Assembly: GCA_947600025.1 (NCBI GenBank) | Contig: CANQFY010000005.1 | Coordinates: forward strand, 1-47,741 | Length of the DNA: 47,741 nucleotides | Direction of reading: 5' to 3' | Source of the DNA: an uncultured Oscillospiraceae bacterium | GTDB taxonomy: Bacteria; Bacillota; Clostridia; Oscillospirales; Oscillospiraceae | In this document: one piece after another, positions 19,061-22,866 of the stretch | Layout: each line of letters begins with the position of its first letter | Position numbering within the stretch: the first letter of the stretch is position 1 | The notes under the pieces: model-generated | What the model was told of the DNA's origin: nothing | Seen by the model: only the letters and a program-made list of their open reading frames with translations | Databases searched by the model: none | Position numbers and translations under genes: made by a program

Positions 19061-19089
19061 TTGATTTGCGCCATGCGCTGTGGTAAAAT
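19061..19089 (+). promoter_or_regulatory. Promoter of the zinc ribbon-TPM-SPFH operon
   Basis: TTGATT (19061-19066), 17 bases and TAAAAT (19084-19089), about 20 bases before the first start codon. Confidence 0.7.
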
Positions 19090-19109
19090 AGGAACCGGGA
19101 GGGATGCTT

Positions 19110-20192
19110 ATGGCCGGAACGGACCAGGTATTGGAATACAAATGTCCATGCTGCGGCGCCGGACTGAAATTCAGCCAGGACGGGCAGAACATGGCCTGCG
19201 ATTACTGCGGCAATACCTTTGAGATCGAAGCGGTTAAGGCCTATAACGCCACCCTCGCCCCGGATGAATTTGTCTGGGACAACACTGACACCGCCTCTTG
19301 GAGCGAGGCCGAGGCCCAGACCATGCACACCTTCCAGTGTCCGGCCTGCGGCGGCGTACTGATGACCGACGAGCATACCGCCGCCACCTTCTGTCCCTAC
19401 TGCGAGAATCCGGCGATCATTCCGGGCCGCCTCTCCGGAGGTTGGAAGCCGGAGGGGGTCATTCCCTTCCAGACCTCCAAGGAGGACGCCCAGGCCGCCT
19501 TTTTAAAGCTGTGTAAGAGCAAGCCCCTGCTTCCCAAGTTTTTTACCCAGGAGCAGCGGATCGAGAAAATTACCGGCATCTATGTTCCCTACTGGCTCTA
19601 CAACTGCAACAGCAATTTCCGGGGCCGGTACAGCGCCACCCATACCCACGTCTGGTCGGACGCCAAGTACAACTACACCCGCACCGACCACTACTTACTG
19701 ACCCGGGGCGCCTCCGCCGTCTTCGAGGGAATCCCCATGGACGCTTCCAGCAAGCTGGACGATGGGCTGATGGAGTCCATCGAGCCCTTTGACTACACCG
19801 CCTCGGTGCCCTTTGAGACGGCCTACCTCTCCGGCTTTCTGGCGGACAAATACGATGTGGAGTCCCAGCTGGGCCAGGAGCGGGTCCGCCAGCGGGTAGG
19901 GGCCTCCATGGAGGATCTGCTGGCCCCCACCTTTCTGGGCTTTGCAACCGTGGTCCCCACGGGCAGGCAGCTCCGGGTGGACCACAGCCGGGCAAAGTAC
20001 GTCCTGCTGCCGGTGTGGATGCTCCACACGAAATACAAGGACAAGACCTACGTTTTCGCCATGAACGGCCAGACCGGAAAGATGACCGGCACCTTCCCCG
20101 TCTGTCCCAAGCGGACCGCCGCCTGGTTTGCCGCCGTCTGCGGCGGCGTGGCGGCACTGGCCGTCCTAGTACAATGGCTGCTGTGGCTGTAA
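19110..20192 (+). CDS. Zinc-ribbon membrane protein, YdjG-like
   Basis: The N-terminus has two zinc ribbons: YKCPCCGAGLKF...CDYCG (residues about 11-35) and FQCPACGGVL...FCPYCENPA (about 75-100). A soluble region with GIYVPYWLYNCN follows, and one hydrophobic helix ends the protein (AAWFAAVCGGVAALAVLVQWLLWL), so it is probably tail-anchored facing the cytosol. This arrangement, followed by TPM and SPFH genes, resembles Bacillus subtilis YdjG-YdjH-YdjI, a membrane platform linked to PspA; that match is from memory of the families. The ATG at 19110 has GGGAGG at good spacing; the ATG at 19104 is too close to it. TFIIB-type zinc ribbon is the generic alternative label. Confidence 0.78.
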   Translation: MAGTDQVLEYKCPCCGAGLKFSQDGQNMACDYCGNTFEIEAVKAYNATLAPDEFVWDNTDTASWSEAEAQTMHTFQCPACGGVLMTDEHTAATFCPYCENPAIIPGRLSGGWKPEGVIPFQTSKEDAQAAFLKLCKSKPLLPKFFTQEQRIEKITGIYVPYWLYNCNSNFRGRYSATHTHVWSDAKYNYTRTDHYLLTRGASAVFEGIPMDASSKLDDGLMESIEPFDYTASVPFETAYLSGFLADKYDVESQLGQERVRQRVGASMEDLLAPTFLGFATVVPTGRQLRVDHSRAKYVLLPVWMLHTKYKDKTYVFAMNGQTGKMTGTFPVCPKRTAAWFAAVCGGVAALAVLVQWLLWL

Positions 20193-20203
20193 AGGGGCGG
20201 ACC

Positions 20204-21064
20204 ATGAAAAGAGCTTGGATGATTCCTCTGCTGCTTCTGTTCCTGCTGGGCTTGGCGCCCTGCGCAAAGGCTCAGGCCCCCCGGATCGTGGACGAGGCAG
20301 GGCTGCTGAGTGGGGAAGAAGAGCAGGTTTTGGAGACCCGTGCGGGAGAGCTTTCGGAAAAATATGGCATGGACGTGGTCATTCTCACGGTTTACAGCCT
20401 GGACGGGCAGGACAGCGAATCCTATGCCGACGATTACTACGACAGCCACGGCTACGGCCTGGGAGGCGATAACAGCGGCGTGCTGCTGCTTCTTTCTATG
20501 GAGTACCGGGACTGGGCCATCAGCACCTGCGGCGAGGCAATTTTCGCCCTGACGGACTACGGGATCCAGGACGTTTTCTCCCAGATTGCCCCGTATCTAT
20601 CTGAGGATGAATACTACGACGCTTTTAGCGCCTATCTGGACGCCCTGGAACCCTATTTTGACGCCTACGCCCAGGGTTCGCCCATTGACGGCGACGCCCC
20701 GGATTACCACGGACCCGGCTCCTACGAATCCGGCACCCAGGAGGAAACGGTCTACGCCCCTAAAAAGGCCCCTGTTCTCCGGTTCCTGCTGGTGGGGCTT
20801 GCGGTTGGCACGGCCGCCGGAGGGATCACGGTAGCGGTGATGGCGAGCCAGATGAATACCGCCAGACATCAGCACGGCGCCGAAAGTTACGTCCAGCCGG
20901 GGAGCTATCAGCTCTACGAAAACCAGACCATTTTCCTCCACAGCCACGTCACCCGGACGGCCCGGGCAGAGTCCAACGGCGGCGGGGGAAGCGGCGGCGG
21001 CGGCAGCTCGACGCATCACAGCTCCGGCGGGCAGAGCCACGGCGGCGGACACGGTAAATTCTAA
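20204..21064 (+). CDS. TPM-domain membrane protein, YdjH/YgcG-like
   Basis: The ATG at 20204 opens a clear signal peptide (MKRAWMIPLLLLFLLGLAPC, cleavage likely after AKA). The TPM domain (about residues 25-150) begins IVDEAGLLS and includes VVILTVYSLDGQ, DDYYDSHGYG and NSGVLLLLSMEYRDWAIS. A membrane helix (VLRFLLVGLAVGTAAGGITVAV) follows. The last 45 residues are Gly, Ser and His rich, ending GGGHGKF. The TPM domain should lie outside the cell and the tail inside. The track ORF from 20015 starts within the previous gene and lacks support. Its position between the zinc-ribbon and SPFH genes supports a three-protein complex. Confidence 0.88.
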   Translation: MKRAWMIPLLLLFLLGLAPCAKAQAPRIVDEAGLLSGEEEQVLETRAGELSEKYGMDVVILTVYSLDGQDSESYADDYYDSHGYGLGGDNSGVLLLLSMEYRDWAISTCGEAIFALTDYGIQDVFSQIAPYLSEDEYYDAFSAYLDALEPYFDAYAQGSPIDGDAPDYHGPGSYESGTQEETVYAPKKAPVLRFLLVGLAVGTAAGGITVAVMASQMNTARHQHGAESYVQPGSYQLYENQTIFLHSHVTRTARAESNGGGGSGGGGSSTHHSSGGQSHGGGHGKF

Positions 21065-21090
21065 AAATTCATGATAAAGGAGAACGAATT

Positions 21091-22404
21091 ATGGGACTGA
21101 TCAAAGCGGCACTGGGCGGAGTGTCCTCCGTTCTGGCGGATCAATGGCGGGAGTATTTCTACTGCGACGCCCTAACGGAAAACGTGCTGGCGGCCAAGGG
21201 TCAAAAGCGGACCACCGGCCGCAGCAGCAATACCAAAGGCTCGGAGAACATCATCACCAACGGCTCCGTGATCGCGGTCAACGAGGGTCAGTGCATGATG
21301 ATCGTGGAGCAGGGCCAGATTGTGGAATTCACCGCCGAGCCCGGCGAATTCACCTGGAATTCTTCCACGGAGCCCACCATTTTCTACGGCGGCCTGGGCC
21401 AGGGGATCAAGGGCAGCTGGGAGACCCTGAAGCGCCGCTTCACCTTCGGCGCGGACACCGCCAAGGACCAGCGGGTGTACTATTTCAACCTGAAGGAGCT
21501 GGTGGGCAACAAGTACGGGACCCCCTCCCCCGTGCCCTTCCGGGTAGTAGACGCCAACATCGGCCTGGACATGGACATCGGCATCCGGTGCAACGGGGAG
21601 TATTCCTACAAGATCACGGACCCCATGTTGTTCTACAAAAACGTCTGCGGCAACATTCAGGAGGTCTACACCCGGGACCGGTTCGACAGCCAGCTGAAAT
21701 CCGAATTTCTGACGGCCCTCCAGCCTGCCTTCGCCAAGATCTCCGCGCAGGGCATCCGCTACTCCGCCCTGCCGGGCCACGCCATGGAGCTGGCGGAGGC
21801 CATGAACACGGTCCTGTCTGAAAAGTGGAGCGGTCTCAGGGGCATTTCCGTGGTGTCCGTGGGGGTCAACTCCGTCACCGCCTCTCCCGAGGACGAGGCC
21901 GCCATCAAGGAGCTCCAGCGCAATGCGGTCTTCCGCGATCCCAACATGGCCGCCGCCCACATGGTGGGGGCCCAGGCCGCCGCTATGCAGGAGGCCGCCA
22001 AAAACAAGAACGGGGCCTTTACCGGTTTCCTGGGCATGGGCATGGCCCAGCAGGCCGGCGGGCTCAACGCCAACGCCCTGTTCCAGATGGGCCAGCGGCA
22101 GCCGCAACAGACGCCCCCCGCTCCTCCCGCCCAGGAGACCTGGAAATGTTCCTGTGGCGCGGAGAATACCGGCAATTTCTGCACGGAGTGCGGCGCCAAG
22201 AAGCCCGCCGTGGGCTGGACCTGCGAAAAATGCGGCGCAATAAACAAGGGCAAGTTCTGCGCCCAGTGCGGGGCCAAAAAGCCCGCCGGCGCCCCCCTCT
22301 ACCGCTGCGACAAGTGCGGCTGGGAGCCGGAGGACCCCAAGCATCCACCGAAGTTCTGCCCGGAATGCGGCGACCCCTTTGACGATCAGGACATTCGCTC
22401 TTAA
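21091..22404 (+). CDS. SPFH-domain protein with C-terminal zinc ribbons, YdjI-like
   Basis: The first 320 residues match the SPFH/virion-core-like family (YdjI in Bacillus): ADQWREYFYCDAL, GSVIAVNEGQCMMIVEQGQIVEF, then YFNLKELVGNKYGTPSPVPF and DIGIRCNGEYSYKITDP. There is no obvious membrane helix; such proteins associate peripherally and oligomerise. The C-terminus adds three zinc-ribbon-like modules: CSCGAENTGNFCTECG, CEKCGAINKGKFCAQCG and CDKCGWEPEDP...CPECG. The first zinc-ribbon protein of the operon has related modules. An AAGGAGA SD precedes the ATG. In Bacillus the counterpart helps to recruit PspA to membranes; no PspA gene is in the window. Confidence 0.9.
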   Translation: MGLIKAALGGVSSVLADQWREYFYCDALTENVLAAKGQKRTTGRSSNTKGSENIITNGSVIAVNEGQCMMIVEQGQIVEFTAEPGEFTWNSSTEPTIFYGGLGQGIKGSWETLKRRFTFGADTAKDQRVYYFNLKELVGNKYGTPSPVPFRVVDANIGLDMDIGIRCNGEYSYKITDPMLFYKNVCGNIQEVYTRDRFDSQLKSEFLTALQPAFAKISAQGIRYSALPGHAMELAEAMNTVLSEKWSGLRGISVVSVGVNSVTASPEDEAAIKELQRNAVFRDPNMAAAHMVGAQAAAMQEAAKNKNGAFTGFLGMGMAQQAGGLNANALFQMGQRQPQQTPPAPPAQETWKCSCGAENTGNFCTECGAKKPAVGWTCEKCGAINKGKFCAQCGAKKPAGAPLYRCDKCGWEPEDPKHPPKFCPECGDPFDDQDIRS

Positions 22405-22446: not shown

Positions 22447-22866
22447 ATGAACATTCAAATTGCCTCCCCCGCCGACCTCTCCCTCCTTGCCCAGCTGGAC
22501 CGGCACATTTCCCCAGCAGAGTTGGAGCGGGCCATTTCCCTGAGCCGGGTCTACTGCCTCCGGGATGGGGATCGTCTGGCGGGCTGGCTGCGCTACAATC
22601 TGTTTTGGGACAACACGCCCTTCCTGAACCTCCTTTTTCTGGCGGAGAACTGCCGGGGCCACGGCTACGGCAGGGAATTGCTCCGCTACTGGGAGGCGGA
22701 GATGGCCCGCATGGGCTTCCGATTGGTCCTGACTTCCACCCAGTCCGATGAGTACGCCCAGCATTTTTACCGCCACATGGGCTACCAGGCTGTCGGCGGC
22801 TTTACCCTACCGGGGGATGTCTACGAGTTGATTTTTGTAAAGGAAATCGGAACCGGCATGGCTTAG
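22447..22866 (+). CDS. GNAT-family N-acetyltransferase
   Basis: The 139-residue protein has the GNAT acetyl-CoA site in LFLAENCRGHGYGRELL (motif A, R/Q-x-x-G-x-G/A pattern) and a C-terminal HFYRHMGYQAVGGF (motif B). It acylates an unknown amine substrate. I prefer the ATG at 22447 (MNIQIASPADL) over the GTG at 22408, because the usual GNAT first strand begins there, although neither has a strong SD. It follows the SPFH gene closely and may be read from the same promoter. Its TAG stop sits in the loop of a perfect 12-bp hairpin at 22851-22878. Confidence 0.82.
   Translation: MNIQIASPADLSLLAQLDRHISPAELERAISLSRVYCLRDGDRLAGWLRYNLFWDNTPFLNLLFLAENCRGHGYGRELLRYWEAEMARMGFRLVLTSTQSDEYAQHFYRHMGYQAVGGFTLPGDVYELIFVKEIGTGMA

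Follow-up and report, generated by a model that had tools for sequence, protein, structure and literature searches.

A putative PspA-independent SPFH membrane platform related to the Bacillus subtilis YdjG-YdjH-YdjI complex

Three adjacent genes, denoted here A, B and C, lie in the window (the entire stretch of 47,741 nt that was analysed) and form a tight operon that probably encodes an SPFH membrane platform independent of PspA, a sister of the YdjG-YdjH-YdjI complex of Bacillus subtilis. What is mainly known of the YdjGHI proteins is that they serve PspA as its membrane receptor. Roughly one in three of the class's sampled genomes encodes C, mostly without PspA, which suggests that the platform performs a separate function; mutants of B. 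subtilis ydjG and ydjH, whose shape defect does not depend on PspA, hint in the same direction. The original prediction described a YdjGHI platform that had lost PspA and gained zinc ribbons on its SPFH protein; this account is mostly wrong.

The operon and its membrane proteins

A, B and C are real genes, comprising three open reading frames in tight succession, with intergenic gaps of 11 bp (A/B) and 26 bp (B/C). The features of the locus are as follows.

19061..19089, + strand: promoter candidate, sigma-A-like (TTGATT-17-TAAAAT, TG before the second hexamer)
19104..20192, + strand: A, YdjG-like protein of 362 aa, assigned by homology to YdjG
19143..19208, + strand: A, zinc ribbon 1 (C14, C17, C32, C35)
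19338..19403, + strand: A, zinc ribbon 2 (C79, C82, C97, C100)
20106..20186, + strand: A, predicted C-terminal hydrophobic helix, residues 335-361, putative tail anchor (sequence and AlphaFold2 model, pLDDT above 90 there)
20204..21064, + strand: B, YdjH-like protein of 286 aa with signal sequence, TPM domain, transmembrane helix and Gly/Ser/His-rich tail
20285..20650, + strand: B, TPM domain (PF04536, E=2.1e-32), residues 28-149
20774..20845, + strand: B, predicted transmembrane helix, about residues 191-214 (from sequence; aligned with the helix of B. tequilensis YdjH)
20846..21061, + strand: B, putative cytosolic tail of a conserved type, ending in ...THHSSGGQSHGGGHGKF
21091..22404, + strand: C, SPFH (Band_7_1) protein of 437 aa (PF13421, E=4.4e-15; model matches solved SPFH proteins)
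21097..21138, + strand: C, predicted N-terminal amphipathic helix, residues 3-16, instead of a membrane anchor; modelled with low confidence
21244..21912, + strand: C, SPFH domain, residues 52-274 (PF13421 match)
22147..22191, + strand: C, zinc ribbon 1 (C353, C355, C364, C367)
22222..22269, + strand: C, zinc ribbon 2 (C378, C381, C390, C393)
22306..22368, + strand: C, zinc ribbon 3 (C406, C409, C423, C426), the last, with near-constant CDKCGWEPEDP..PPKFCPECGD
22447..22866, + strand: GNAT acetyltransferase (PF00583), directly downstream of C

Reading frames, domains and homology thus bear out the observation that a zinc-ribbon tail-anchored protein, a TPM protein and an SPFH protein are encoded here in the order of ydjG-ydjH-ydjI. 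The promoter candidate is weak, because two promoter-like sites were found against 1.0 expected in shuffled sequences. For A, an alternative ATG at 19110, which would yield a protein of 360 aa, is better placed behind GGGAGG. The GNAT gene is possibly co-transcribed with the set; it was rejected as a fourth conserved member, given that among the fetched neighbourhoods it recurs only in one (L165). Rfam detected no RNA elements in the window, and a link of A, B and C to phage defence was dismissed, as none of them matched the PADLOC-DB models at E<=0.01.

As a reference for the comparisons, we used the locus of B. tequilensis, a member of the B. subtilis group, which was located via a published ydjI primer sequence. 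We regard A as a genuine YdjG homologue on the strength of its similarity to B. tequilensis YdjG (246 bits, 35% identity). Both of its ribbons are N-terminal and of the C4 type, with all eight cysteines (8/8) invariant across 45 homologues. The model of A has a mean pLDDT of 91; a fold search of the PDB with this model returned nothing significant (best E=0.13), and sequence searches for solved relatives of A and of C likewise found none. Because the fold has no significant match in the PDB, the role of A is extrapolated from YdjG alone.

The ribbons of A resemble, at a low level, those of the transcription machinery, with matches to TFIIB-type ribbons (E=5.7e-4) and to the model of RNA polymerase subunit P (E=1.5e-5), and DNA binding has been suggested for YdjG (PMC9239133). 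These observations could be taken to mean that regulation is the main role of A and of the ribbon tail of C, which would bind nucleic acid or polymerase and relay the state of the membrane to transcription. We consider this reading highly improbable: every such match falls below the curated cut-off, ribbons of this type serve protein contacts equally often, no regulator gene is linked to the operon, and A is membrane-anchored.

B, in turn, can be assigned as a YdjH homologue by its TPM domain, transmembrane helix and conserved tail. The TPM domain, the only match to this family in the source genome, scores 112.2 bits against a curated cut-off of 22.1, and the Gly/Ser/His-rich tail aligns with that of B. 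tequilensis YdjH, of which the fetched locus held only a part.

Comparative analysis of the relatives indicates that A and B act together. The YdjG tree, in which B. tequilensis was flagged for a long branch, consists of two groups, and a YdjH-like neighbour or its remnant accompanies the YdjG gene in 54/54 loci of the subtype to which A belongs versus 0/7 of the other. In one locus (L094:5786-7096), the YdjG-like protein forms a single fusion with the transmembrane helix and the tail from a YdjH-like B and, similarly, in L101 and L115 B is reduced to the helix and the adjoining tail; in all three, the TPM domain is missing. This co-occurrence, the fusion and the remnants point to the helix and tail as the essential part of B.

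A sister of YdjI with a C-terminal ribbon array

The third protein, C, belongs to PF13421 with 56.3 bits against a curated cut-off of 24. The monomer model (mean pLDDT 79.8) was matched by Foldseek to stomatin, HflK/C, prohibitin and flotillin with E-values from 4e-8 to 1e-5 and probability 1.00, and to erlin as well; the match to stomatin has E=3.8e-8. The predicted N-terminal helix has a hydrophobic moment (muH) of 0.40, and the N-terminal sequence, MGLIKA..GA.GG.LADQW, is conserved.

According to the original prediction, the SPFH protein had gained three C-terminal zinc ribbons. The three C4 ribbons are indeed present, but they do not count as a gain over a YdjI that lacks ribbons, since that of B. 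tequilensis (323 aa) already ends in one C4 ribbon. A single zinc ribbon is also described for YdjI of the B. subtilis group (PMC8581546, PMC11237479), and each of three PspA-linked YdjI orthologues in the order of the source organism has one.

Moreover, phylogenetic analysis identifies C as a member of a sister SPFH subfamily rather than an orthologue of YdjI. In a tree of 54 SPFH proteins, C falls in a group of 49, and the true YdjI group of 5 consists of B. tequilensis, PspA-linked relatives and the protein of L116; the branch separating the two groups is long and has an SH-aLRT support of 100. C and YdjI share only about 20% identity. One genome (G006) carries both types, with pspA-ydjG-ydjI at L104 and, in another place, a multi-ribbon SPFH gene at L103. 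In L104, the ydjH position is filled by a 125-aa protein (L104:7236-7613) that has hydrophobic stretches and, at its C-terminus, a zinc ribbon.

Within the clade of C, the final ribbon is nearly constant and the count of preceding ribbons varies, with two ribbons in 3 proteins, three in 44 and four in 20, and the ribbon tail is more conserved than the remainder of the protein in most comparisons. The constancy of the last ribbon and the clade-wide presence of two to four ribbons indicate that the multi-ribbon tail is a feature of the clade and not a recent gain. A literature search by the names PF13421 and COG4260 found no description of this multi-ribbon clade. The ribbons of C had also been said to resemble those of A. 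Judged by their sequences, this likeness is weak and generic, with a best local match of E=0.01; a common origin of the two sets of ribbons was rejected on the same grounds.

Distribution of PspA and the neighbours of the operon

The claim that no pspA is present holds for the operon and for the whole source genome, a 1.77 Mb draft of 97 contigs that is 95.8% complete. Searches of this genome with PF04012 found no PspA, and an order-specific PspA profile retrieved nothing even at E<=10, so that a hidden divergent PspA was rejected as well.

Broader counts put this absence in context; the genomes with a strong C match, defined as E<1e-50 in the order and E<=1e-60 in the class, were counted manually. 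In the order, 79/147 genomes have a strong C match, and PspA scores over the cut-off in 10/79 of these versus 10/68 of the others (p=0.81). Across the class, where 136/391 genomes have a strong match, PspA is found in 4/136 of those with C versus 39/255 of those without it (p=1.3e-4, with kinship among the genomes ignored). In the genus, 28/41 genomes encode C, none of them (0/28) encodes PspA, and the sole PspA-bearing genome is without C. Class-wide, PspA is encoded beside a Gly-rich TPM protein, beside a true YdjI, or alone; directly adjoining C, it was found in only one of the loci examined (L083).

The A-B-C set is therefore a widespread operon in its own right, in both order and class, that is not tied to PspA, and the missing PspA is the normal condition of this branch rather than the result of local loss or replacement. 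Sets in the order A-B-C or C-A-B recur across many families of the order, with C-A-B in most loci and A-B-C in the window, in the relatives nearest to it and in a small number of others; within the genus, the copies at the FPP synthase locus retain A-B-C. Some genomes of the genus possess two sets, one of each order (G184, L166 and L167; G177, L169 and L170), and G148 (L171 and L172) has two of the C-A-B type. In some loci (L066, L086, L090, L091 and L103), C is encoded without A or B nearby, such that it may also act alone or with components encoded elsewhere.

This distribution bears on the possibility that a YdjGHI platform lost pspA in this lineage, with the extra ribbons of the SPFH protein replacing PspA or recruiting a substitute effector. 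The homology of A and B to YdjG and YdjH, the A-B-C order matching ydjG-ydjH-ydjI, and the scarcity of PspA alongside multi-ribbon SPFH proteins are all compatible with such a scenario. We nevertheless find it improbable, since C lies outside the YdjI clade, YdjI already has a ribbon, A-B-C is the minority order, and L083, the sole locus with PspA beside C, retains the multi-ribbon tail.

Other genes occur around the fixed set as optional neighbours, namely, DUF6935 in nine loci, a Tim44-like protein in five and PspA in one. DUF6935 (PF22043) is encoded within 350 bp of the set, be it A-B-C or C, for example, at L087:8819-9385, L095:10372-10995 and L171:8827-9396; a full-text literature search for the name DUF6935 found no paper. 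The Tim44-like zinc-ribbon protein is encoded in or beside the set in L101, L115, L118, L119 and L122, adjacent to C and in L115 between A and C, and its carriers are deep-branching relatives. One could suppose that in these relatives either protein takes the place of PspA as a separate effector, and that an unlinked protein does so in the source genome. Apart from the proximity of the genes, this idea draws on the short, amphipathic N-termini of some DUF6935 proteins, which are similar to that of PspA (muH 0.38-0.48 versus 0.45). We regard it as unlikely, albeit less so than the loss of pspA, because most loci have neither neighbour, there are DUF6935 genes at a distance from the set as well (L175, L182), and a search of the source genome produced no DUF6935 match. 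The earlier suggestion that the ribbons replaced or recruited a different effector thus finds indirect support in the relatives and none in the window, where neither a DUF6935 nor a Tim44-like gene flanks the set.

Proposed function and relation to known systems

Under the interpretation we favour, a PspA-independent platform, B would span the membrane, with the TPM domain outside and the conserved tail in the cytosol. The C-terminal helix of A would hold this protein in the membrane so that its domain and ribbons lie in the cytosol, and A would pair with B. C, lacking a transmembrane anchor, would be recruited to the membrane by B (and A), via the helix and cytosolic tail of B, and would assemble on the inner face into a ring or cage of SPFH proteins; client or effector proteins would dock on the ribbon array at the free C-terminal end of C. 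The likely job of such a platform would be to scaffold or chaperone membrane and envelope proteins and to tune the state of the membrane under stress, with PspA as an optional client at most.

Experimental data on B. subtilis make a PspA-free function plausible. There, YdjH binds both YdjG and YdjI, the correct placement of YdjI requires the two membrane proteins, and YdjI foci form in the absence of PspA; alkali-stressed cells become misshapen when ydjG or ydjH is lost but not when pspA or ydjI is, and the membrane is stiffer if YdjI is missing (PMC8581546). Given the low identity between C and YdjI, the contact between B and C may not carry over from B. subtilis. A bolder generalization, which we offer tentatively and consider possible but doubtful, is that the class encodes a docking platform of general use, built on SPFH proteins and separate from the phage-shock system, in which the array of two to four ribbons accepts interchangeable effectors (DUF6935, Tim44-like and, occasionally, PspA) while B brings the cage to the membrane. 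The operon and its relatives offer concrete handles in the array of ribbons, B's cytosolic tail, the fusion of A with B and the neighbouring DUF6935 gene.

The closest known system is the pspA-ydjG-ydjH-ydjI operon of B. subtilis (PMC8581546, PMC9239133, PMC11237479). Both include a two-ribbon, tail-anchored YdjG, a YdjH-type TPM protein whose helix and cytosolic tail are of the same kind, and an SPFH protein without a transmembrane anchor and with C-terminal zinc ribbon(s), encoded in the order G-H-I. Unlike in B. subtilis, here pspA is absent from operon and genome, C comes from another clade than YdjI, with three ribbons versus one and a longer N-terminus, and most relatives of the set have the order C-A-B. 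The B. subtilis operon is sigma-W-driven; the promoter candidate identified here is sigma-A-like and comes from a scan whose range excludes sigma-W promoters.

In the class of the source organism, PspA-TPM pairs (L108, L110-L113, L136, L146, L147, L149, L151 and L152) resemble the window set in that a TPM-type membrane protein is encoded beside its partner. They differ in the Gly-rich N-terminus and the weak TPM match of this protein (E=7.3e-5 in L151), in having PspA as the partner, and in the lack of an adjoining YdjG-like or SPFH gene, and might represent a separate PspA-TPM system.

With the SPFH cage proteins stomatin, HflK/C, prohibitin and flotillin, C as modelled shares the SPFH fold and the helices that follow it, but it has no predicted transmembrane or hairpin anchor, has a C-terminal ribbon array, and has A and B as its proposed partners. 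Also close are the PF13421 (Band_7_1) and COG4260 proteins: C belongs to PF13421, and COG4260 is described as having a C-terminal Zn ribbon. In the literature searched, mostly non-subscription, an SPFH-TPM-zinc-ribbon platform was described only together with PspA. The component families are already known, and what appears to be new is the PspA-free, multi-ribbon variant and its spread.
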